From Rhodamnia argentea (lineage: Eukaryota > Streptophyta > Magnoliopsida > Myrtales > Myrtaceae): a stretch of 64,000 nt of DNA. The position numbers and the translations under genes are program-made. The stretch spans positions 31,737,294-31,801,293 of the forward strand of contig NC_063155.1 in assembly GCF_020921035.1 (NCBI RefSeq). Direction: 5' to 3'. The notes under the pieces are model-generated. The model searched no databases. It worked only from the letters and a program-made list of their open reading frames with translations, and was not told the DNA's origin. This document shows, piece after piece, positions 1,790 to 62,688 of the stretch. The first letter of the stretch is position 1, and every line of letters starts with the position of its first letter.

Positions 1790-3655
1790 TTTACATTTAA
1801 TTTTTCTGATTTTTTCCCCTTTTTTTCTTCTTTTTGTTTGAATAATGTTGATCTTCCTCTCCCTTCGTTTCTTGTACTGTTCATCTCCAAGCTACCACTT
1901 CGGACCTCAATCTAGACCTCGAGCCACTTACAGGTATGGATGTCAATGGGTGAGGTCAAGTCGGGTTTTTCATGATACCCGACTTGGAACACAACACATG
2001 TATGCTTGGCCCGCCCCGGACCAAGATTGAATGGAACATGACCTAACCAATCGGGTAGGGTTTCGTGCTTTGAATTTGAATTTTCTTTTGTTTTTTTAAT
2101 AACCGGAGGCTCCCAAAAGTAATATGATGTATTTCTCAATTCATCAAGCTACAAGTGAAAATCAAAATATCATAACGAAAATTGTGCAACACCTCATTGA
2201 TAGAATTTCGAGCTCGTCAAAATACTAACATAAGTATCAATTTGCGGCTCAAATTTGGAAAAAAATTACAACCTCAAAATGTTCTATGTTTGCAATTGTG
2301 ACTTGCTCGATTGATTACAAAAACCACAAAGGAGGGGGAGAAAGTAAAGCAAACAATTAAGAAACTTCGTTGTTTTTGCAGAGGACGGATAACATAGAGA
2401 AACTTCATTTGGACAGTTTATCTCTGCGCTCTTTACGTCATTCTCAACGTGATCACTTTAATTAATGCTACTGTCCCTTTACTTCGCCAATTCTTGCTCA
2501 ACATACGTCACCCTGTTGTAGCAGATATAACGATAGCAATTATAACAAGTGACTGAATTGAAGCTAATAGGTGAAATATCCTAACATGAGCAAATAGCTA
2601 AACATATCAAGACATGTGGGCAATCGGGCACATGAGAAATAACAGATGCTGAAAATTCATTAGCTTGCATGGCGATTTTATCAAGTCTTGCATTACCAAA
2701 TTCTGCTAGGAAAATTTAATAAGACAATCCGCTCACTACGTGAGTGTCATGAACACGTCAAGTAAAGGCTTTAAATCAGAAAGGACCTTACACTCGCTCT
2801 CAAGAAAAGTTATCTATCATGTTAGCAGGATTAAGAGAAACACTTCATCTACCCATTGTTACATTCAGTAAGGGTCTATTCTTGCATTGATACTACGATA
2901 TGTAGGATGAAGACTCTGGTGACCTTGTCTTTTCCAACTATGTTTTGTTCAATTCCACTAATTAAATTTTTATATAACGTGGAATGGACTTCTCTGTTTT
3001 CACTCGCTTGTATTGACATGAATATCATGCAAGACAAATTTTGTGACGTCATCCCTTACCATGATCGTTTCTCGTTATCCTTGTATTAGAAAAGAGGCAT
3101 CCATTAGTTGTTCCTAAATTCAAAAATTAAGACTATCATCGAAAACAAAGAATTGAGCTTGTCGGTTATAGCAATTTAATCTTTTAATATAATGGGTTGC
3201 ACACTGCACTTCAAGTTCAATGTCGTATCATTTCACCATGATTTTGCGAACTGTAAATAAATCCCTTGTCAAGAACTCTTTTTGATGGCCCATTAAAAAT
3301 TAGAAAATAAAATGAGAGCATTGAGGACAATCCATGTGCCCATCCCTAAGGCATTTCTTCAAAATTCTTTCACATTTACCGAGGGAGTACAGGAAACAAA
3401 ATAGAGAAGAAATTATTAAAAAATAAAAAATATATTAAAATACTATTAAAATTTGTACATTTTAGTGCCGGCCGACCAAATGGATTGAATTAACACAATT
3501 ACAATAAGTTTAAAATTTTTTTGATAATTTTCCTGACTCATCATTATTAAATTTCTAGTTGCCATGCCACCACAAAGACTGAGATAATTATATGTAGACT
3601 TGCCTGTTCGGTTATGATTGCACCCATCTGTTTTAAGATTTTTGGGTAGAAGTTT
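1790..3655. other. Intergenic, no gene seen
   Basis: AT-rich intergenic DNA. A short GC-richer patch at about 1930-2065 resembles fragments of hAT-type MITEs (compare 4826-5205). Nothing else was recognised; the short reading frames have no family-like composition. Confidence 0.4.
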
Positions 3656-11770: not shown

Positions 11771-11779
11771 TTAGTTTTT

Positions 11780-11994
11780 GAGAAAATTTCAAAAAAGGAC
11801 CTGAACTGCCATCGTTTTCTCAAATAAGGGCATGAAGTTAACTTTGTTTCAATTAAGGGTTTGAAGTGCTCAAATTATTTCAAAAGAGGGCCTAACTGAA
11901 GGGTATTTTTGACTTTTACGTTTTCATTATTTTTTTAATATTTTTTTTTACCTTGTTTTTTTCTCCTCTCCTCCCTCCTATTCATCATCTTCCC
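11780..11994 (+). repeat. Left terminal inverted repeat of the Pack-MULE
   Basis: Starts gagaaaatttc directly after the left copy of ttagttttt. It pairs with 15814-16004 and then 13066-13094 in reverse complement, with scattered mismatches. The homology ends at cttccc (11994). Confidence 0.8.
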
Positions 11995-12057
11995 CTCGCA
12001 ACCGATCGATCCCACCATCGAATTCACGCAGACTCCAAATAAAGAGGGAGAGAAGCC

Positions 12058-12180
12058 ATGACTGGAAGAAGCTACAATCTCTTGAAAGTGGTGATCGCCC
12101 TCTCTCTATTCAACACCCTCTCTCTCTGTCTCTACTTCCGCCCTACCCCGAAGCGAACCCTCAAAGCTTCTTCCTCATAG
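12058..12180 (+). pseudogene. Possible captured N-terminal fragment of a membrane protein
   Basis: An ATG at 12058 opens 40 codons ending in TAG at 12178. The translation has a short polar head (MTGRSYNLLK), a hydrophobic stretch of about 16 residues, and a basic tail (FRPTPKRTLK). That looks like the start of a type II membrane or secretory protein. It continues after the stop with DDDPNGFIPQ-like sequence in the same frame. It lies between the left TIR and the helicase fragment, so it may be a second captured gene piece. I do not recognise the donor, and chance is not excluded. Confidence 0.3.
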
Positions 12181-12296
12181 ATCCTCGATGACGATCCGAA
12201 CGGTTTCATTCCTCAATCAACCATCCTCGGGCCAATGGTCAAAAATATAAGTCACGAATTCAAAACCTTTAATTTCAAAAGAAAGAAACCTTCGAG

Positions 12297-12298
<2 letters not shown>

Positions 12299-12353
<55 letters not shown>
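12299..12353. repeat. (CT)n microsatellite
   Basis: About 27 CT dinucleotides immediately upstream of the captured ATG at 12358. It resembles the CT-rich 5' untranslated region of many plant genes and so may have been captured with the gene. Confidence 0.9.
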
Positions 12354-12354
<1 letters not shown>

Positions 12355-12357
12355 GCC

Positions 12358-13065
12358 ATGGCGGACCTTGACGGCAACGCCCTCCGGGCCCTTAACCGGC
12401 AATTCTGTGAAGCAAATGACGACCCCATGTCTTCGCATGTCTCTCGGTCTTCTTCTTCTTCCTCTCAAGCGTCCACCTCCGAAACTTACCTCCTCGGCTT
12501 CATCATCGCCAACATAGTCGAGCTCCGCCACTATTCCGGCACCATTAGCGGCCGCGAGATGGTGGGCCTTGTCCGCGAACCTTTGAATCCCTATGACGAG
12601 AAAGCAATCCGCCATCCGGGTCCTCAACACCAAGACCATCCGGGTCGGCCACATCAAGCGCGACATCGCCGCTGTCCTTGCCCCTTTGATCTCTGTTGAG
12701 GGCATTGTGCCCAACAAGTAGCAGTGGTAGCAAGTTCAAGATCCCTTGCCAAGTTCACATCTTTTCAAGAGTCGAGGCCTTCGACCTCGTGAAGTCGGCT
12801 ATTTCATGAGGCGGGTTAGTGCTCATTTTGGACAAGGGAACTTCGTTTGCCTTGTCGAAGGCGGTCATGGTGAAGGAGAAGAAGGGTCGGAAGGAGGAGG
12901 GGAGTGTGGATGAGATTTTTAAGCTGGTGGACAAGAATGTTGGGAAGAATGTGACGATGGAAGCCCTGGAGCCACCAAGGGAGGTGATAAAGTCGGTGCT
13001 CTTCGATCACCGGAAGAAGGGGTTGGGCTAGTTGGTTCATAGGGAGAACTCTGGGGAATTGCATT
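12358..13065 (+). pseudogene. Captured SMARCA3-like (SNF2/HIRAN) helicase fragment, decayed
   Basis: Reads like the N-terminus of plant SMARCA3-like 1 SNF2 proteins: MADLDGNALRALNRQF, a Ser-rich linker, then HIRAN-type sequence (YLLGFIIANIVELRHYSG, GLVREPLNPYDEKAIR). After a frameshift near 12610 it continues with VGHIKRDIAAVLAPLI. After TAG codons near 12718-12729 and a return to another frame come FKIPCQVHIFSRVEAF, a TGA near 12807, SFALSKAVMVKEKKG, DEIFKLVDKN, EPPREVIKSVLFDHRKKG and a TAG near 13029. It stops just where the helicase core would begin, at the inner edge of the right TIR. With several lesions and no ATPase motifs it cannot make a helicase. No intron is evident. In intact relatives the HIRAN domain binds DNA ends. 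Confidence 0.8.
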
Positions 13066-13094
13066 GGGAAGATGATGAATAGGAGGGAGGGGAG

Positions 13095-15813
13095 TGTCGC
13101 GACCTAAAATTTAGGCTAACGGATTATCGAGTCAATTAAATCAACCAACCTGATTCGAACCCTCCCAAGTCCTATCGAATCGCAACTTAGGTTTATTCAT
13201 GAAAAAATATTCAATTGGAGCCGCCACTAATCATTTACGGAAGGTTGATTAGAAACCTTAATAAAATAGAGGGAGAACTATTTTATTTCTGCGCACTGGA
13301 GAAAAATGGGTTCGGGGACTTGGTTACGCTAATTGAAAAATTAACGCCCTTTCGGTACCAATTTCATGAAAAAAAACTTTCCGATTGATCGATGTGAATT
13401 GAATGATTTTGATTTTTATGAAAAATGCAATACGAGACCATATATATTATGCGTCCAGAGGATGATTTTTTTTGTATTTTCGGTGATAAAAGAAAACATT
13501 CAAAAGCAATAAAAAATCTGAACAAAATTAAACAAAAATGCCCATAATATACCTTTAATTTTCGATTTTTACGAAAATCCTCTCATTCCCAAAGATCCGG
13601 GCTAGAGCGAGATTTTATCCGCTACATCCTCGAAGATTCGAACCGGTATGCGGATATGTGTATAGAAAAACAACATCCCTTTTGCCGAAGGGCAGAATAC
13701 AAATTTCTATACTAAATCACCATCCCATTCCACGAGATCGTGGCTAAGGCGTGTGATTTATTTTTCCGACGGGTCTAGACACATAGGGGAGCATATATTA
13801 TAGGCATGTTTGTTTAAAATTGTGCAAATTTTATAACAACCAAAACAAACAAGCACGATAAAAATAAAATAAAAATGAGTCAATTTATTTTGGATTTTCG
13901 AAAATATGAGAGGGGTGACCAAAAATATGAGATTGGGGATCCACCTTTCCTCATCCAAAAATTCAATCCAATTTTAATTTGAGAAATTATCTTTAAGGAT
14001 CGGAAAATTTACTTTCGGATAATTCTCAAAAATGGGATAATTATCCAGTCGAACGCAAATATTATCTCTAATCAAATGCTTTCAGAAAATTTACCAGAGA
14101 TAAGATCAAATAATCATCTCAACCGATTCACATGTTAAAGATAATCATCGGAATCAAAAGTGTATCCACAACGACCAAATAACATCCAATTAGACACAAA
14201 ACGTATCCATGACATGAGCACCCATAAAAGATAAGGCAATATAACCAATAGAATAAATGTGAGATAACTATCCGAAGAAAAAGATTATTCACAAGTCAAA
14301 TGTTATCCAGTTCGAAAATTCCCAAAGATTAGATAAAGTTTATTCACATGATCGTTATCCAATTCACATGAGATAAGATTGAACAACCAACGGGATAACA
14401 TCAACTCAACCAATTGAGATAAAAATCAAAACAATGCTCATCCATCCATATGCAATTCAGCCGAGAGAGCTATGGTACCGAAAGTCAATTCCTTTCCCAC
14501 AAAAATTCTTATCCTCTCCAATTTGTCTAATTTAATCTAAAAATGGTTGGACCAAATTCGAGAAAAGATTTTTCCAATCAATTTAATCAATTCTCAAGGA
14601 TGTGCATGAAATTCAACCAATTTTATAATCAAATTAGCCTTGCTAAAAAAAAATCAGATTTTTAGTACCACAAGAGTCACGTTTTCGGTTTTCGACATAA
14701 AAAAGCTTGAATTTTTCAACTTTAATTGCAAAAATCAATGTGTTCAAAGATGCTAAGAACAACAAGCAAGTTACCAAGCTAACTAGCATGATTTAGCAAC
14801 CAAAAGTTGAGAATTTTTACCCTTTCTAAGCCAAATTCTGCACCTGCGCGCTTGCTGGAAATTTACCCAAAATCGCACTTTTCGAGTTCGGTTCGCTATC
14901 GAACTTCTCCCGAATGATCTACTACAAGTAATAGCATTGTCGGGTCCTCAAATAACCAGAAAAGAAGAGCTGATCAACCTTCAAAAAAGGCTGGACAGCA
15001 GCGAACAGCAGCTGATCATCGATGCTAAGTTCGTCGGGATTGGCTTGAACGTTCGCTGAGGATTAGTGGAGACGGCACAAAAAATTGGATCGGAAAAGCA
15101 CTCAAAAATGCCAAGGACTACGAGGATCTGTGAAGGCCGACCACATTTTGTGCCGAATTCGTCGATGAAAAACGCCACTTTTCTTGTACCTCCTCACGAA
15201 CTCACGTGTGATGACAATTGTGTGGCCTCCTCCAACAATGGCCGTGCTTTTTAATGAAGTCCCCCCAACAATGGCCGTGCTTTGGATGAATTCCCCCCTA
15301 ACCCTAAGGTATAATGAGGTATTTATAGACTAAAGGGTTGCATAATCCTAGTTGAAGTATGATTCTTTAATGACCATCGGATTAAATTTCTGATCTTCAA
15401 GAGTCCGATCCCGTTAAAATTCCTCACAAATTGGACTATCATGGGCTATTCGAATTTCATCCTCTTGCGGGCTTGATTGCACACTCTCGGACTCAAATTG
15501 GGCTTTATGAATAATAGACATTAAATTGAAAGCCTTTACAAACTAAATGGACTTGAACAAATTAAATTGAGCTTGAAGTGGGCCCAAATAGCTCACAAAA
15601 ATTCTGCACGCCCAATTGTGGGTTCGGACGAAAATCTTAGACTCAATTCGGTCCGGCCCTTTGTTGAAATTAAGCTCAATGACTAATCTTTGACATGATT
15701 GACAAAAAGTAAATATGCAACGCATGAGAAATTATTTTTGCGAGAATTATAACTAATTCTCATTTTATGCTTAAATAAATGATTTACTAAAAATCAAAAT
15801 TTAGGTGTCAACA
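13095..15813. mobile_element. Solo LTR inserted in the Pack-MULE right TIR
   Basis: A 2,719-bp segment begins TGTCGCGACC and ends TAGGTGTCAACA, that is TG...CA ends. It is flanked by gggag (13090-13094) and aggag (15814-15818), a near 5-bp target duplication. Removing it and one flank restores the right TIR as a continuous match to the left TIR, which independently fixes both junctions. It has no coding domains. A TATA-like tatttatag lies near 15320, compatible with a U3 promoter. It is best read as one long LTR left after LTR-LTR recombination of a retrotransposon, family unknown. Confidence 0.7.
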
Positions 15814-16004
15814 AGGAGGAGAAAAAGAAAAGATAAAAAGAAAACATTAAAAAAATAACAAAAACGTAAAAGGAAAAAATACCCTTCGGTTAGGCCCTTT
15901 TTGAAACAATTTGAGTACTTCGGGCCTTTATTTGAAACAAAGTTCACTTCAGGCCCTTATTTGAGAAAACGATGTCGCTTCGGGTCCTTTTATGAAATTT
16001 TCCC
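15814..16004 (-). repeat. Outer part of the right terminal inverted repeat
   Basis: Reverse complement of the outer left TIR. Its outermost bases, gaaattttccc, are followed at once by the target duplication ttagttttt. The inner remainder of the TIR is at 13066-13094, beyond the solo LTR. Confidence 0.8.
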
Positions 16005-16013
16005 TTAGTTTTT

Positions 16014-26376: not shown

Positions 26377-29079
26377 ATGCCGATTCTGAAGGTACTCATG
26401 CCTCCCCCTGCCATGAACATTGCCCACGTAAGTCGTGATGTCCATCTCCCACCACCGCCCAGCCATGGCAACACGGATTTCCTAACCAAGTGCGTCAAGA
26501 CTTCCAGGGACGATTTCTTCGGCGTCTCCTTTGACGAGACCGCTGAGAATAACTTATTCTCTCATGTACTCTTGGAAGTGTCATTCGTCATCGTGGTCTC
26601 TCGGGTTATCCGATTTCTCCTCAAGCCTCTTCGTCAGCCTAGAATTGTCTCGGAGATCCTTGTGAGTATTTCGCCTCTACCGACTTATTATATGTTTCTG
26701 TGATTTAACGCCTTGCGGGGGCATTGCAATTCAAGGAACAGATACAATGATTAAATGGACCCAAAGCGATTCTCACTTTGATTTTTCGTTTTCTTATTTA
26801 TGTCTCCTCCTTACTCTGAAGGGTGGAGTGATCGTTGGACCCTCCGTTCTGAGCCACAATCGCAAGTTCATAAGATATGTGTATCCAGATAGTGCGAATT
26901 TTGTGGTCCGAAACGTCGGCACAATAGCTTTCATGTATTTCCTCTTCATGGCGGGCGTGAGAACGGATATGACCATGGTGAGGAGGTCGGCGAAGAAACA
27001 CGTGTACATAGCATTGACATGCGTGTTCGTTCCCTCGTTCGTAGTGATAGCAGTTGGTCTGATCATGCAGCGGTCCATCAACCATGCTTATGGAAATCCG
27101 TATGCCCTCGGAGTCCTTGGTTCATCCACTGCCATAACGGCATTCCCCGTTCTGTATCCCATCCTCAAGGAACTGAATCTTCTGAATTCTGAGATTGGAC
27201 GCCTGGCCTTATCATCTTCAATAGTTGGGGATATGATAGGAATCGTCGCTATCATTATATTTGAAGCAGCTGTCCAAGCGAAAGCCGGTTCCATCGCTGG
27301 CTTCTGGTGCTTGGCTACAACGGTCGGATTGATGGCCATCATGTTCTTCGGCATTCGGCCTGCATTTGCTTGGATCATTCGAAATACCCCAGAAGGCCAG
27401 CCCGTTGACCAAACTTACATCATAGCGATCCTTGTGGCGGTATTGCTTACGGGGTTTTTGACCGACTTCATAGGCGTGGCCATCGCTAACGGGCCTTTGT
27501 GGCTGGGGTTGATGATTCCTGATGGGCCCCCGCTCGGGACAACGTTGGTGGAGAGGAGCGACACGATAATCATGGAGCTTCTTATGCCATTTTCCTTCAT
27601 GTACATCGGCCAGTCCACGGACTTGGTCGCGATGGGGAAGGCGTGGTCGAGCCTGAAACCAGTGTGTGCCATTGTTGCAATTGGGCACTTAACCAAAGTG
27701 GTGACAAGTCTTTTGGCCGGTCTCCTAATCGACATGCCCGTCGCGGATGGTCTTGCCCTTGGCCTCATCTTGACCCTCAGGGGTCAGGTTGATCTCTTGC
27801 TGTTCATTCATTGGTTGGAGAAAAAGGTACGCGTCGCATACGAGAACTTCGTCTAATTTATTCGCGAGTATAATATGCACATCAATCTTAACTTTTGTCT
27901 GTGGCCGGATTCCCAAATGAAATGCAGGTCATAGAGCCGCAGGTGTACACGATGATGGTGATGGTTTCGGTGATGGTCAGTGCAATATCGACACCATTGA
28001 TCGGCATTCTGTACGACCCCACAAAGCCTTACATGGTGAACCGAAGGCGAACCATCCAACACACACCTCCATCCACGGAGCTCGGCGTAGTGGTTAAAAT
28101 CCACGACGAAGAAGATACCGCCAGGTTCATCAACTTCATAGACGCCTCCAATCCTACCATGAGCAATCCGATCTCAATCTATGGTCTGCACATCGTGCAG
28201 TTGGTCGGTCGCGGGTACCCTAGGCTCATCGACCACGGGAAGCTGGCGCAGTATTCTAAGTACGCCATCTACGAGACCATCCACCAAGCCATGAAAGTGT
28301 ACCAGGAAAGCAAGAGCGAGTGCATCAGCTACCAGGCCTACACGGCCCTGTCCCCGAAGCGAACCATGTATCGAGATGTATGTGAGATCGCCCTCAATAA
28401 CAGGGCTACTTTGATCCTGCTCCCATACCACAAAAATCTCCCACGGAACCACCATGGAACTGTGCTTGTGAGTGACGTGTTGGCCAACGCACCATGCTCG
28501 GTGGGCATCCTCTTGGACAAGGGCCACTGTGGAAGCAACTCGATGCGGATGCCGGTGCCCATGGTCAGCCCTTCGGACATCCAAGCACAGTCCCACCAAT
28601 TAGTGGTCCTATTTTTAGGGGGCGCGGATGCTCGAGAAGCGCTGTATTACGCAGATCGAATGGTGGGGAATGTGAACGTGCGTCTCTCGGTGATCCGATT
28701 CCTTGCCCACAACGGGGAAGGGGATGATGAGATGGAGAAGAAGCTGGACGACGGGGTGGTGACCTGGTTTTGGATGAAGAACGAGGTGAACAGGAGGGTA
28801 AACTACAGGGAGGTGGAGGTGAGAAACGGGGAAGAAACGGTGGCCACCGTGCACGCGATGAACGACAACACGTTCGATCTGTGGATCGTGGGGAGGAAGC
28901 AGGGCATAAACCCGGTGCTGCTGCAAGGGTTGACGGCTTGGAGCGAGAACAGTGAGCTGGGAGTGATAGGCGAGTACGTGTCGTCCATGGATTGTGATGC
29001 GGCAGCTTCGGTGCTAGTGGTCCAACAACAAGTTCTGAGGGAGCAGAGGCATTGGCTTCGGCGTTTTGGGGTGATGTAA
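26377..29079 (+). CDS. CHX-family cation/H+ antiporter
   Basis: Three exons, 26377-26661, 26822-27826 and 27928-29079, all phase 0 with GT-AG introns, encode 813 residues, the usual CHX length. Residues 1-95 hold the cytosolic head and first membrane segment (LKPLRQPRIVSEIL). Exon 2 is the CPA2 exchanger core, with GGVIVGPSVL, TAITAFPVLYPILKELNLL and ALSSSIVGDMIG, which contains the conserved TM Asp (about D232). Exon 3 is the last membrane segment (STPLIGILYDPTKPY) and the hydrophilic C-terminal domain (VVVKIHDEEDTARFINF, ASNPTMSNPISIYGLH). CHX proteins move K+/Na+ against protons at plasma or endomembranes, often in pollen. It sits in the CHX3/4/15-like group by feel only. An in-frame upstream ATG (26311) would add 22 residues. 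No disabling lesion is seen. Confidence 0.9.
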
Positions 29080-32507: not shown

Positions 32508-34794
32508 TTAACAGCGAGGTAGATCTAGTGGGGGTGGTATTACGGATTGCAACTCTCCAACACCGTTCTCCACCAGGAAAGACATGGCCAGACCCCAGAC
32601 CAGATGAGAGTCAATGTGACAATGCATCAGCCACACTCCTGTAAGAACAACACAGGAAATAGAAATGGTCAAATATGAGGTTGCGTTGTCATTTTGCACT
32701 TGTTTTTTCTCTACTTTTTTGGATTCATTCATATTGGTTGTTTCATTTATTTCACCTGGATTATCGGCCACAAATCTGATCGCCACCCAACCACCTGGAG
32801 GTGTTCCAATCGTATTCCTCACTGGGGGATCGATAAGATTGAACTTGGCCGGATCATTTCTTGGATTGAAGTTCCCAAATCCCGCCCCAATCACCGCGAA
32901 GGAATATCCATGAAGATGTATTGGGTGATCTTCTGTTGAAACGATGCTTGTATCTTGCAATATAATTTGTACCCTGGAACCAAATTTTAGCTTGTAAAGC
33001 TTAGTTGCTTTTACGGGTTGCCATAGGCCCCGACTCACGTTACCGGTGTAATCGAATTGAATTGGAGGAACGGGTGGAAAATCTGTTGTGAAGACTCCAG
33101 GAATTCCTTGATAGTAGGCTTGCATCAAGGAATTTGTTCTAGGAAAAACAAAAGAAACGTTGTTCATGCTGGCAGCGAACCGAGTCCCATTGGGACCTTG
33201 ACATCGAGGGCTATTAGGATTGGAGCAATTGATAAGTCCTAATCCTACAGTGAAAAATAGGTTTTCGTCAATTTGAGTTGGGACTTTGATCTTCCAAGGA
33301 CTCCTCAAGCTCGAAGTAAATGCAGTTGCAGTGGCTGTATCATTATAGGCAGGAAGTCGTGGGAGAATTGGCCTAGAGGATTGTCCCTTCCCACTACTAC
33401 CAGACGCCAATATGTATTGGAGAATTGCTGTGGTGGTGGTGTTATCAAAGGCAGCATTTTGAGCAGTTTGGTAGGCTCGTGCTGCCATGTAATAACGACC
33501 CGCGGCTTGGTTAGCTGTAATGAGCACGTTGGTGGTTTGCCCGGGTCCTATCATAATGACATTGGTTGCGAAAGGCCTGGTGTAGGCGGCATCGACGCCC
33601 ACGACCGTCATTTGATGGTTTGCGACGGAGAAGAAGAGTTCTTGATTGAGTGCAGCATTGATGATCCTCAAGAGAATTGTCTCCCCTGGCAACACTGGAA
33701 ATACAGCAGTTCCTGCATTTTCTATGCATGGTCAAAAATTTCTCAATTTCACAAAGCCAATGATCTTGAATTAGAGCAATGAAGGGGTTCGAATGGGACT
33801 AACCTTTGCTAGAGCATCTGTACAGATCTCCAGGTTGACCGTTGATTGTATACGCGTCAGATACGTTTGGAGCAGCGCCTGTGAATAATGCTTGCTTAAG
33901 CACATCCATTGGGTTTCCGTCCCACCATTCACCTGTCCAAGGACGCAAATAAAACCGATCATTTCATTGCTCGAAATTAGACAGAGATGTAATCGACTGT
34001 ATCCTGATACAGATTGCCATGGAACTATCAAGATTTTACCTAGAAGTATAGGGAATTCTCGCTTGGGCATTGGGAAAGGATAATGCAAACCCCATCTAGG
34101 AAAGATTATGAGAGCTCCATAAACGGTGGCCCTAAGCCATTTGCTGTGAGCATGCCACCACAGTGTTCCCTCCTGACTTTGGATGGTGAACCGGTATGTA
34201 TATGTTCCTCCAGGTTGGATGGGGCATTGCGTCACATATTCAGGTCCGTCTGCCCATGGGTTTCGTAATTGACGAATTCCATGCCTAATGGTCAGACAAG
34301 TCAGGAGAGAAGTTATTCGAGTAGAAGAAGTTCCGTCCTTCCGAAGATTTACTGTATGCATGAAGTGTGCCAAATGGAGCAGTTTAATTGTAGCCTCTTT
34401 GCTATAGATTACCAATGCAGAGTGACGTTGTATCTGGCCCGGTTTATGGCTGTGATGACAAGAGAATCTCCATCTCTTACTGCCAGTGTTGGCCCTGGGA
34501 ATTGGCCATTGACTGTGATAGTGCTGTGGGTTCTGCATAGTCTCTTCACTGGCCTAGCTTGGATCTGTAACAATGCAATCAATCAAACAAGTTGACGAAA
34601 AAAGGTTGTTAGCACAAAGCCTGTCATCTTGAACAAGTTCATAAAAATGCAGACAACATGTGGAGATCAAATAGAGATACCACAAACTCGTGGTAGTGAA
34701 CTTCGCCCGCCGGGAAAGAAACCGAGGACACAAGTAGTGTCACAAACAAAAGGCAAGAACACATCCAGAAGTTAGCAAGCTTTTGAGGGTCCAT
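32508..34794 (-). CDS. Laccase (secreted multicopper oxidase)
   Basis: Six exons: 34681-34794, 34413-34564, 34040-34284, 33804-33932, 32756-33712 and 32508-32638. Exons 2-4 are 152, 245 and 129 nt, the invariant sizes of plant laccases, and the protein is 575 residues, the normal length. The N-terminus has a hydrophobic signal peptide ([18 protein letters not shown]). All copper-ligand motifs are present: HWHG (split by intron 2), [16 protein letters not shown] and HCHIDSH, with Leu at the T1 axial site (HLVWGLAM). It should oxidise phenolics such as monolignols or flavonoids in the apoplast using O2. The ATG at 34794 directly precedes the signal peptide and sits 67 bp below a TATA box. The subfamily was not determined. 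Confidence 0.93.
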
Positions 34795-53666: not shown

Positions 53667-55134
53667 GGCTCTCGCGACGAAGACGGTTTGACGATGATCC
53701 CTTTCCACGAACTGGTTATGGCTGATGAGATGAGCAGGGGTTTAAGCTAGGGTTTCGCTCCACACTCGCTCCACATTAACACAGTATCATCTCCAACTTC
53801 TTCCGTATACTTTTATTTTATTTTTTTTCCCTTATAAATCTAGCTGTTCATTTTCATACCCCGTTTGGTTGTCTTTTCTTTTTCTTTCGGTCAGAAAACA
53901 ACAGATTGACGTGACTTTGCGGTTACTCTTAGGTTGTTCCCCGTGTGTTTGGATGACGGTGCCCATTTAGCATCGTCCTAGCCCTAACTCCGATCCCAGT
54001 CCTGGAATAGGATCACCCGGTTTAGCACTAGAGCTTGAAATTCGGATGCACCTAATTTTGCGTTAAATTTTATATGGCCCAGTGTATTGACAAAGACTAG
54101 ATGGTGTGTAAGGTCCAATCCAGGAATTGAAAATATAGTTTGAAGGAACTATGAGCCATCTTCTTACGGTTTCTTGAAAGTGAAGTTAACCAGCGATATT
54201 AGAAAAAATTATATATGCATCGCTTTTAATTTAAAAACATCAACACTTATATTCTAATGTATCATAATTTTAGATTTGGTATCGATATATGTTTCATACA
54301 TAGCACTCAAAATAATAGGCATTAATGTACTTCGAAGTTTTTCAACTATAAAATTAAGTAACAAAGGACAATAATTTTTTAAGATTTCGCATGATAGTAT
54401 AAATTTAGATTTAATATAATGGTGTCATTGATGTTTGAATGATTGGATTCGATTACACAATCTCTCGAACCATGTCGAGCGTATGATATTAGATGGATAT
54501 AATTACGATAAGCACTAATTGGAAAGGATTTCGAATCGCGTTATTCTTGTTTAGTGAAATAAATGAGAGCGAAAAGGGTGAAAAGCAAAGCAAGATCGAA
54601 CCGGCCGTGTGATCATCGGATGTTGGCAGACTGAGACCGACCGGTGAAAATTTGCCCTTTTCCCACGACTCTCCTCGCGAGTCGCGACTCGCTCATCTTC
54701 ATCTTCATCTTCTTCGGTTTTGCCGTTGGTTTACTTGGTTCCTTGTGCGATGTCCAAAGTCCAGCCATAGAGCCACGTGCAGCTCGTCCTCCATCGGCGC
54801 CATCTTCATCTTCATCTTCATCTTCTTCGGTTTTGCCGTTGGTTTACTTGGTTCCTTGTGCGATGTCCAAAGTCCAGCCATAGAGCCACGTGCAGCTCGT
54901 CCTCCATCGGCGCCTCCCACCTTAGCCTAAGCCCCGCCGCCCCCCCTTCCATGACATACGACTCTCTTTTCTTCCTCAATTCAATTCCATCCTCCTTCGT
55001 CTCCTTCACTTCCCTCGCTTTCACTCCGCTTTCTCTGAACCTCCCCTCGCCCTCCCCCTCCCCGTCTCATTGCTAGATCAGCGAGCGACGCTCGTCCGAC
55101 CTTCCATCCCTGCCTCCGATCGTTTAATTCGAAG
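53667..55134. promoter_or_regulatory. Divergent NAA25/SNX2 intergenic region
   Basis: A 1.47-kb region between the ATGs of two divergently transcribed genes, so both promoters lie here. The SNX2 side carries the duplicated G-box block at 54692-54917. The middle (about 53950-54560) is AT-rich with no recognised feature. Confidence 0.6.
54692..54917 (+). repeat. Near-perfect 113-bp tandem duplication upstream of SNX2
   Basis: Copy 1 is about 54692-54804 and copy 2 about 54805-54917. They agree almost base for base from the (catctt)n start through tcttcggttttgccg to ccatcggcgcc. Each carries a perfect palindromic G-box CACGTG (54774-54779 and 54887-54892). The duplication ends about 220 bp before the SNX2 ATG, so it is in the promoter or 5' UTR. 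Sequence identity implies a recent event or an assembly artefact. Confidence 0.85.
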
Positions 55135-58100
55135 ATGATGGGCTCCGAGAACCAGGGTTTCGAGGAAGCCCACCTCTACGCCTCCAAAGAAGAGATGGAG
55201 TCCCTCGTCCTCGGCGACGCCTCCATATCCTACTCCAACTCCGACTACCGGAGCGCCATGTCCAATTCTCTCTCCGACACCCACCATCCTCTCTCCCCTC
55301 CGATTCTCCCCACTCCCGCCGACTCCGATCCCCTCCTCGCTCCCCCTCCGCCCTACCCCGAGCTTCGAAACCCTAGCTCCCACGACAACTCCTCCTACAT
55401 CGAGCCCCCTTCCTACTCCGATGTCATCTTCAGCCCCTTCGATGGCGACACCTCCTCCGAGATCAATGGCGTCGATAGCCCTAGCCCGAGTTCCGACAGT
55501 CCCATAAGCTTCTCCCGATCTTCCTCCTCTAATGCCGAGTACATCAAGATTACCGTGTCCAATCCCCAGAAGGAGCTGGAGGTCACCAACTCCATCGTGC
55601 CTGGAAGTAACACCTACGTCACGTATTTAATTACGACCAGAACCAACATACCTGAGTTTGGTGCCTCCGAGTTTAGCGTCCGCAGGCGGTTTCGGGATGT
55701 CGTGACCTTATCCGATAGGCTGGCTGAGTCGTACAGAGGGTTTTTTATCCCGCCAAGGCCCGATAAGAGCGTAGTGGAGAGTCAGGTGATGCAGAAACAG
55801 GAGTTTGTGGAACAGAGAAGGGTGGCCCTTGAGAAGTATTTGAGGAGATTGGCGGCTCATCCCTTCATTAAGAAGAGCGATGAGCTGAAGGTGTTCTTGC
55901 AGGTGCAGGGGAAACTTCCCTTGCCGACGAGCACAGATGTTGCTTCGAGGATGCTCGATGGTGCGGTCAAGCTTCCAAAGCAGCTTCTCAGTGAGAGTGT
56001 GGTAGCTCCGCATGAGGTCGTGCAGCCGGCAAAAGGGGGGAGGGACTTATTGAGACTGTTTAAGGAGTTGAAGCAGTCGGTTGCCAATGACTGGGGAGGT
56101 TCCAAACCTCATGTGGTTGAAGAGGATAAAGAGTTTTTGGAGAAGAAGGCGAGGATGCATGATATGGAGCTACAACTAAGCAATGCTTCGCAGCAGGTAA
56201 TTTGTTGCTGTCATATATGTCCAGAATGAACTTTCGCCCCTGGCCATGTATTTGCTATATCTCAAACTGATCTTTGGTTGCTTGATGTTGTGTGCACGTG
56301 CTTAGGCGGAATCATTAGTTAAAGCTCAGCAAGACATGGGGGAAACAATGGGAGAGCTGGGACTGGCCTTCATTAAACTGACAAAGTTCGAGAATGAGGA
56401 GGCCGTGTTTAATTCTCAGAGATCACGGGCAGCTGATATGAAAAATTTGGCAACTGCTGCGGTTAAAGCTAGCAGATTTTACCGAGAATTAAATTTGCAC
56501 ACGGTGAAGCACTTGGTAAGTTCTCCTCCTGTTTTAAGTATTTCAATCTGGCAAATAAGAGACTTTATCTATGATGTTATGAAGGTTCAAAGGTAAAGCT
56601 TTAACTCAAGCATGAAAATTTCATTACCTTTGGCTAATCCCTTTTGTCGAACTAAAAGGACATTACAATATCTCAATATGAATTGCAGGATACCCTTCAT
56701 GAGTACTTGGGTCTCATGTTAGCAGTACACGGTGCCTTCTCAGATCGCACTAGCGCTTTATTGACGGTGCAGACTCTTTTATCAGATTTATCTTCGTTTA
56801 AATCAAGAGCTGAAAAACTGGAAGCGGCGTCATCAAAGATATTTGGTGGTGACAAGTCGAGAATACGCAAGATAGAAGAATTGAGGGAAACTATAAGTGT
56901 CACTGAGGATGCCAAGAATGTTGCAATAAGAGAATATGAGCGGATTAAGGTAACATGTATCGTTATTCACTTGTCTTCATGTGATTGTATTGAGACTTCA
57001 GTGATTGATTTCAAGAGACGGGCCCTTTAACAAGCACAAGAGCTGCTGAATTTTCTGGTTTTGTTTTCTGAGTTTCAAGTTTCTGTCGACTGTTAGGGTA
57101 TCTTTAGTACCTCCGAAGAAACTTTCTTTTGTATAAGGTGGTTCAATTTTAAAATATGCGGAGTTGTTTGTAATATTTTCTTGACAGGCAGAGGCACCAG
57201 TATATTTTTAGCGTTTAGCACTTTCACCTTCAACTGAGGCAGTATTATTGCAGGAAAATAACTGGACTGAACTTGAACGGTTGGATAAGGAAAGGCATGC
57301 AGACTTCTTGAATATGCTGAAGGGGTTTGTTGTGAATCAGGTACGTTGTCTCTTCTTCTTCTGTTGACTGCGAATCTCAGCAGCCGCAAGAATTGTAGCA
57401 ATTGTCTAGTATGGCGCTTCTTATTTGTTGTCTCTCCTCCACTGGTTGCTGTTTGTGGATGCTAGCAAAGAGAAGATGACCCTAAGTACTGATATCTACA
57501 CGTAATTCAAGTACAATAGAATTTGAAAATAGCGGCTATTTTCTGGTCGGATTTGAGTCCAGCAGTATACTCAGCTTTTTGGCTGGATAATTCGACGATC
57601 ACTTGTATGTCATGGTCATGGGCTGTCAACTGTGTAAGATCTATGACGTAGCATTTTTCGACTCTCTAGCTACATCTTGTCTCCATGTAGGCTGTAGTTC
57701 TTGATAACCCTTTAAAGTAGTGTCAGGCAGATCCATTCTTGTCAAATGCCACATAATTCCCGGCAGATTATTTCAGTGGGTATTTTTTTATGGTGCTACT
57801 GAAGTTGCAGTGCATGGATGGAGTGGGTATCTGGAAACACCTTTCACCGCCAACCTTTAGAGGGAGTCTAAGTTAAAAAATAGTTTAAGTTTTGTGCAAG
57901 ATTCCATCACCTTGGTAATTACCAGTGGCATGATTGATTGGAGTTATAAGTTTTGAAGCAACAAATGGTTAAAATGTAGGTGCGGGCTAATTTACAGTCG
58001 TACTGCTGCTAAGTCTAATATTGTGGTTGAGGAAGAGGGTATGCCTTGAAGGAGGCTCTGATGAGTGCCTCCAACAGCGACAATGCATCTGTCTCAGTAG

Positions 58101-61030: not shown

Positions 61031-62372
61031 TCAGTATTCATTTCTAGAGTTGCCAAAGAATAATTGAGGAAGAACTTGCTCCTCTAGGAACAGAGACATG
61101 TAGTAGTACGCTGACTCGCTTGGATGGATGCTATCCCAGAATAAGTGTTGCAATGAATTAAGACATGTTGGTGTGAGTTCGTTGCACAGAGGTCCTGCTT
61201 CCACATATCCAGTGCCACAGCATCCTTTCTTTGTCTCCAGGAATCCTGTCACCCATAATCTCAGCAAGTAAAACATAAATGGACAGATAATTGCCTATGA
61301 CTAAAACGTGCCCTTTGAAAGCTGAGGGAAGAGTGGAGAAACGAGAGCATTGTAATGGGACTCAAGATGAGAACCGTAAAAAGTGTTTTATTCGGCATAC
61401 CATACTTATGAGGATGATTGATCATGTCAATCATTGGCTCGTACACATCGGCATAGGCAATCTTGCTTTTTGGAAGCACTGATTGTATTTGAGGCAAAAG
61501 ATTTGCTAGCTTGTGATTGTAGCTTCGGGCATCTAGGTTTTCATCTTCTACACATTTTCGATCCTCGGGGTTCTTGAATTTTGCAGTCATCTGAATGGGC
61601 AGACAACCAACTGGAGGAAGCCCCGCCACTGCTATCTTACGGCATCCGAGATCATGGAGTCCCTGGGTAAGTACACTTTTTAGCAGTATGGCTGAAATTA
61701 CTACCAGAACGGAAACTTCATAGCTGTGTGATAGGTAGGTTCTCATCTCACCAATATGATGTCTCGTAGTCTTCCCAGCAAAAAGTCTTGGTATCCGCTG
61801 ATATTGAACTGGATTCTCCTCGTGGGAATATCATAGAAATTGAATATGAAGTCATTAGTTCCTGCACTGATGATGACCAACGCTCCTCTTAAAATCTTCT
61901 TTGCCTCCTCTTCCCCAACCATCTTGTTAAGCCTCTGAATGTACTTCTTCACGTATTCAAGCTGCTTTGACATCGGGATTACACCGGAAGCTGCAGTTGT
62001 CAGATCATCAAACCCCGATCCTCCCGAGGCGAAACTGACACCGGTGCAGAGTTGCTTGTCCTTTAGGTCGGGATCTAGAAACGGAGGAACTGTCTCCTTG
62101 ATACTAGCCGCAGAAGCGATGAAATCAGGAATGAGTTTTCCATTAGAAAATCTACCTGTGGGAACTTGACCAGGGAAGTCGCGACCATAAGGGAGGTGGT
62201 TTCCCTTGAACAAAGTCGGGATGTAGTTATTATTACCAGTGTCGACTGTTGAGTCCCCCAGAATTAGGATTGTCGGGAATAGTTTAGCTGCTTCGGACGT
62301 GGCATTGAGGAAGCTGGAGCCAGTATTCACCAAAAGTACCATGACTAATATAAGCAGCACGGCTGGTGCCAT
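61031..62372 (-). CDS. GDSL esterase/lipase
   Basis: Three exons, 61752-62372, 61401-61662 and 61031-61245 (phases 0 and 1), encode 365 residues, the usual length for plant GDSL enzymes. A signal peptide (VLLILVMVLLVNTGSSFLNA) is followed by block I (LILGDSTVDTGNNNY, nucleophile Ser41), block II (GVSFASGGSG), block III (SAGTNDFIFNFYD, Asn173), KIAVAGLPPVGCLP, GCCGTGYVEAGPLCN and block V (WDSIHPSE, Asp332 and His335). All catalytic residues are present, so it should be an active secreted serine esterase; the natural substrate cannot be told. The ATG at 62372 is preferred. The in-frame ATG at 62573 would add 67 residues ahead of the signal peptide and is unlikely. Confidence 0.92.
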
Positions 62373-62688
62373 TGCATATATTTCTGAAAGGAGGACTAAT
62401 CGACTATGATAGCCCTTGATTCTGGGATAAATAAGTAGATGTTGGCTTGTGACATCGCACTTGAAAAGCATACTTAACCTAGAGGTAAAGTCACTCCTCT
62501 TTTTACCTTGACAAATAATAAAGGACACGTGCACAGAATTCCCTAGCGTCGGAAATGCTATTTTGTTTTCCATTTACTCAACTAGGGTTCTTAAGATTTG
62601 GAAAATCACGTCAAGTTCCTGTTCTGTCGACCCAAATGATGTCTATGTGAAACCAACTTGTTAGTGACGTGGGGAATACTTGAGTATG

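Follow-up and report, generated by a model that had tools for sequence, protein, structure and literature searches.

Pack-MULEs are Mutator-like elements (MULEs) characterized by long terminal inverted repeats (TIRs) and a 9-bp target site duplication (TSD). What is read here as one such element lies in the window under study, i.e. the whole stretch of 64,000 nucleotides from Rhodamnia argentea that was analysed (G000:C6:31737294-31801293) and compared with the genome of the same plant (346.7 Mb in 74 contigs). The element spans positions 11780-16004 of the window and carries on either flank the exact 9-bp repeat TTAGTTTTT, at 11771..11779 on the left and at 16005..16013 on the right. On the + strand of the window this word is found at just these two places, which confirms at 9/9 bases the identical flanks on which a first, sequence-only reading of the locus had relied. 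Zero-offset 9/9 flank matches arose by chance in 2 of 200,000 random window intervals; permitting offsets of up to 8 bp raised this to 9 of 5,000.

The ends of the element form TIRs that share 86.7% identity across 188 columns (E 2.4e-58). The left TIR, about 222 bp long, occupies 11780..12001 on the + strand, as delimited by alignment to the right TIR and to sibling elements elsewhere in the genome. The right TIR (+ strand) is split: its outer 191 bp lie at 15814..16004 and its inner 36 bp were located by alignment at 13059..13094, beyond an insert of 2,719 bp. The long inverted ends proposed at first are therefore real, but their length of ~215 bp has to be corrected to ~222 bp and the interruption of the right one was missed.

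Between the TIRs, two host genes have left their 5' ends. The first captured piece (12002..12216, + strand) consists of the 5' untranslated region and first codons, with an ATG at 12059, of a glycosyltransferase family 61 (GT61) gene. It was recognized by its match to a donor locus on contig C2 (C2:4440595-4440810, minus strand), where 192/220 columns are identical (87%); 12 places were scored for this piece, one being the C2 donor and the other 11 being elements. The donor contains an open reading frame (ORF) that has an ATG and begins with a hydrophobic segment; a same-strand ORF with the GT61 domain (PF04577, E 9.3e-11) lies ~2.8 kb downstream. The first ORF had no match in Pfam and NCBIfam scans; on account of strand and distance, the two ORFs are taken as one gene. 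This gene presumably codes for a beta-1,2-xylosyltransferase, the domain match behind the assignment being that to GT61 in the downstream ORF.

The second captured piece comprises a CT-rich 5' leader (12263..12357, + strand, aligned to the parent leader) and, at 12358..13058 (+ strand), the frameshifted beginning of exon 1 of a SMARCA3/HLTF/RAD5-like helicase gene, encompassing the HIRAN domain and further sequence. Window DNA from ~12263 to 13058, leader included, is 86.5% identical to C7:10116354-10117065 on the minus strand. For this piece 13 places were scored: the 11 elements, the C7 donor and one partial place (L033). The open piece at 12358-12600 matches Pfam PF08797 with E 7.4e-4, which is under the curated cut-off (19.7 vs 24.7 bits), while HIRAN (E 1.1e-21) and SNF2 (E 9.4e-54) are clear in the parent product. 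At the C7 parent locus, HIRAN and SNF2 lie in an open stretch of 550 residues that resembles RAD5 and HLTF chains in sequence, and RING and Helicase_C are found in an ORF beyond it; the locus is an intact HIRAN-SNF2-RING helicase gene. The earlier proposal of a HIRAN-type 5' fragment bearing frameshifts and stops, captured along with its CT-rich leader, was borne out: the lesions are real, the leaders align and the parent was found in the same genome. The helicase fragment is, on the other hand, not the sole cargo as had been assumed, the GT61 gene start having been captured as well. As a separate observation, the window copy and one sibling, L022, have a longer CT repeat in the leader (12299-12355) than do the parent and the 8 other copies in which this stretch is retained.

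The insert that separates the two parts of the right TIR (13095..15813, + strand) ends in TG...CA, is flanked by GGGAG and AGGAG, and is missing from 10/10 sibling elements. Its first 600 bp match at least 40 places, the window included, each at 90% identity or more (40 places were scored out of 2,276 first-look candidates). On contig C8, same-direction matches to the insert start are found at 3512268 and 3521744, with a match to the insert end ~2.5 kb after each, and a similar pair on C2, also resembling long terminal repeats (LTRs), matches the start and end of the insert. Within the C8 pair, a 473-codon ORF matches Ty3 capsid and retrotransposon gag models barely over their cut-offs. The insert is most likely the solo LTR of a high-copy Ty3-type retrotransposon family. 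Since it is absent from all ten siblings, 64% of the interval first reported as a single element was not in the Pack-MULE at its insertion, and the insert entered the window copy after the arrival of that copy. The locus therefore illustrates how misleading nested elements can be.

The chimera of the two gene pieces is present in 11 elements: the window copy, L022-L025 and L027-L032. In all of them the internal order is constant, from one TIR through the GT61 piece and the HIRAN piece to the other TIR; L032 is shorter: it has no filler between the pieces, and its TIRs, the end of its GT61 piece and the start of its HIRAN piece are incomplete or missing. The element ends of 11/11 copies show a perfect duplication of 9 bp or more, and the 11 sequences are all distinct. 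Such different TSDs around one chimera imply transposition after capture and disfavour segmental duplicates with shared flanks. In parallel, the TIR end pattern was found genome-wide at 359 sites with at most 1 mismatch, compared with 0 for the reversed pattern. The stops and frameshifts in the HIRAN piece would also suit a pseudogene or diverged HIRAN gene that was placed here by ordinary duplication, the inverted repeats around it being coincidental. This explanation is refuted by the finding of the same piece inside these TIRs at 11 places, each with a TSD of its own sequence, as well as by the 359 end sites against none in the control, and hardly any credence is left to it. The same observations uphold the Pack-MULE reading, and the outcomes that the first reading had named as refuting capture did not occur: the TIR belongs to a large family, and the fragment is enclosed by TIRs in 11 elements with different TSDs. 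With ten siblings, the element is not a single copy.

It is very probable, in our judgement, that the locus harbours a non-autonomous Pack-MULE of ~1.5 kb with a two-gene cargo, amplified to at least 11 places, the window copy of which was split by an LTR element. The interior of this copy is explained, with the exception of roughly one half of the filler. It was found to contain no transposase, and none of the 150 scored out of 474 candidate places for the PF10551 transposase lay at the window locus.

The lesions of the cargo allow the order of events to be read. A 7-bp frameshifting insertion relative to the parent is present in the HIRAN frame of 11/11 copies and, because it is common to all, the frame was already disrupted when the family began to spread. 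The family having spread with an already broken HIRAN cargo, a working HIRAN protein was not needed for amplification. The sequence-only reading had described an element that captured the gene and then decayed. This is true only in part, since the main frameshift predates the spread; the TAG at 12178-12180 in the GT61 piece and the stop at 13029-13031 in the HIRAN piece are restricted to the window copy. Later lesions divide the family: a 15-bp deletion of the HIRAN piece is found in 4/11 copies and an overlapping 44-bp deletion in the remaining 7, which also have in common an 11-bp deletion in the GT61 piece. Kimura two-parameter (K2P) distances in the HIRAN piece are 0.026-0.059 among these 7 copies; the 4 others differ by 0.095-0.132 mutually and by 0.102-0.131 from the parent. 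A FastTree phylogeny separates the 7 copies with support of 0.997 and 1.000. These sequence relationships indicate an early phase of spread and then a later burst of one seven-copy subfamily.

Could the cargo itself have driven the amplification, by encoding now or in the past a useful fusion of a glycosyltransferase membrane anchor with HIRAN? In the window copy, the glycosyltransferase start, the leader and the HIRAN start lie in one frame save one TAG, and in L024 a 100-codon ORF runs from the ATG of the first gene into the beginning of the second. Such a fusion is nevertheless contradicted by the frameshift of the HIRAN part in every copy, by the first-piece deletion common to the 7 youngest copies and by the lack of codon-position bias among copies, whose polymorphic sites in the HIRAN piece are distributed over codon positions 1/2/3 as 63/67/56 (p=0.62). 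Parent-only differences in the same piece fall as 7/2/20 (p=1.3e-4), a third-position excess as expected if the parent were under purifying selection. In the GT61 piece, which is short, codon-position bias is absent both among copies (p=0.54) and in the parent (p=0.91). A useful fusion is thus considered very improbable, and the shared frameshift together with the codon-position test led to a functional fusion protein being rejected.

The copies might instead serve chiefly as a source of small RNAs that lower the expression or raise the methylation of both parent genes. All 11 copies contain 21-mers that recur exactly in the HIRAN parent region (27-100 per copy), 8/11 contain 21-mers that recur in the GT61 parent region, and 24-nt RNAs are described as mapping to rice genic MULEs in a section of PMC4858842. 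With a divergence of ~9-13% between the HIRAN pieces and the parent, any action in trans would be limited to a portion of each copy, and long ORFs are retained in both parent regions. Small-RNA effects on the parents may occur, and we regard it as unlikely that they are the chief role of the family. The best reading is that of a parasitic non-autonomous transposon whose cargo is neutral.

The junction between the two captured pieces bears on how the chimera was assembled. Alignment places a filler at 12217..12262 (+ strand). A 22-bp patch, AATCAACCATCCTCGGGCCAAT, reaches into it at 12215..12236 (+ strand) and perfectly matches C2:4474114-4474135. This site is separated from the GT61 donor by 33 kb, and the match is to the opposite strand. 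A pattern search for AATCAACCATCCTCGGGCCAAT returned 10 places, namely the C2 site and 9 of the 11 family copies; with equal base frequencies assumed, the expected count of a given 22-mer in both strands of the genome is ~4e-5. The second half of the filler could be traced to no source outside the family, a 24-mer search giving 8/8 places in family copies. In the two donor loci the filler had chance-level matches only, bar 13 bp forming part of the HIRAN leader. The HIRAN parent and the inner TIR end have TTGC in common at the right junction, and the other junctions have at most 1-2 bp of microhomology, all of this as judged by eye. The captured pieces, both 5' gene ends, have GC contents of 0.50 and 0.55 vs 0.40 for the window; capture of GC-rich sequence by MULEs is reported in a passage of PMC4858842. 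The patch, the single one on which this idea rests, hints that template switching may have taken part in the acquisition, in agreement with the gap filling with template switching discussed in PMC8277862. A serial origin by fork stalling and template switching (FoSTeS-like), from the C2 donor through the patch 33 kb away on the other strand and then to the C7 donor, is put forward tentatively, as a possibility that we would not favour at present. If true, the template-switching footprint of a plant Pack-MULE would persist in most of its descendants (9/11 by pattern).

MuDR-type relatives of this TIR family appear to be present in the genome. At C3:8703714-8710416 (L066/L067), a 6.7-kb MuDR-like element has a PF10551 MULE transposase match and a 9-bp TSD, TTAATTAAT. 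The following history can be proposed. A Mutator-like element picked up the 5' ends of a GT61 glycosyltransferase gene and of a HIRAN-SNF2-RING helicase gene, the pieces being joined via a short filler most likely through gap filling or template switching. With transposase that a MuDR-like relative would have provided in trans, copies then reached no fewer than 11 places and generated a separate 9-bp duplication at each, in an early phase of spread and a later seven-copy burst. The window copy would finally have been entered by an LTR retrotransposon, of which a solo LTR remains.

Several observations weigh against parts of this history. The MuDR-like relative resembles the TIR only over about its outermost 87-113 bp, where identity is 77-79%, and its transposase region contains one in-frame TAA; it may not be the transposase source. 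The branching among the 4 older copies is poorly supported (0.18-0.80). As for the insert, the duplication that flanks it matches at just 4/5 bases, and its middle fails to align in the LTR-like pairs, which match its start and end only. Lastly, L033 (C5:25714431-25714755) consists of a right TIR with only the final 99 bp of the HIRAN piece, fused to other DNA; no left TIR was found at this place, which may represent a rearranged or second-round chimera.

Six elements, L034-L039 at C5 and C1 loci, have the same TIRs around a different interior of ~0.75 kb and are 91.6-96.0% alike. Since their interior differs, they are regarded as a sister family rather than as the state before capture. Eight TIR-sharing elements other than the 11 chimera copies, these six included, were examined for TSDs. 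A perfect 9-bp end duplication was found in 3/8 (L035, L038 and L041). L034 has a 9-bp duplication only at a one-base offset within a TA run, L040 an 8-bp duplication in a T run, and no TSD was found for L039. L036 and L037 each have one TSD mismatch, with the same word pair in both, and may have been duplicated together as one segment. In the TIR-sharing element L040 (C2:8614500-8620500), the interior 2560-3453 contains a coding start that may resemble an F-box/PP2 protein, and is probably another gene capture.

Ordinary genes are found near the element in the window. Two successive open stretches in different frames at 26666-29076, both with plant CHX cation/H+ antiporter domains, would represent a single gene interrupted by an intron or by a break. 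Pieces of a multicopper oxidase gene (32511-34553, minus strand), of a PX-domain protein gene (55039-56226) and of a GDSL lipase gene (61746-62573, minus strand) were also identified.

Multicopy and chimeric Pack-MULEs are already known, and the two-gene family described here is a well-resolved addition to them. According to the sections of PMC8277862 and PMC4858842 that deal with rice, Pack-MULEs there likewise combine unlinked host-gene pieces from several parents per element, with GC-rich capture and no transposase found, and are multicopy with distinct TSDs; the first of these sources gives the multicopy share, in the passage concerned, as one third. The parents are different in the present family, and its copies still record which lesions are ancestral, that the spread had two phases, and a patch of 22 bp in the filler. 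The PM-ZIBP element of tomato, as presented in part of PMC3310237, is also a gene-fragment MULE amplified to a similar copy number (14 copies). It contains a piece of one gene and has tandem TIRs in 13/14 copies, unlike the family studied here with its single TIRs and two gene pieces. Microhomology-guided template switching with captured fillers would be a feature shared with the Pack-TIRs of animals and with the gap-filling and FoSTeST models outlined in PMC8277862. Those models, unlike the present case, come from animals, and their application to plant Pack-MULEs is mentioned in the same source as worth exploring. A GT61-HIRAN chimera was not found in the Pack-MULE literature, as covered by open-licence papers.

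The origin of captured gene pieces is termed perplexing in the relevant passage of PMC8277862, and the filler patch of this family offers a concrete test of how MULEs acquire them. Moreover, with both donors in the same genome and the order of events readable from shared lesions, the family represents a case of exon shuffling by a transposon that can be put in order.

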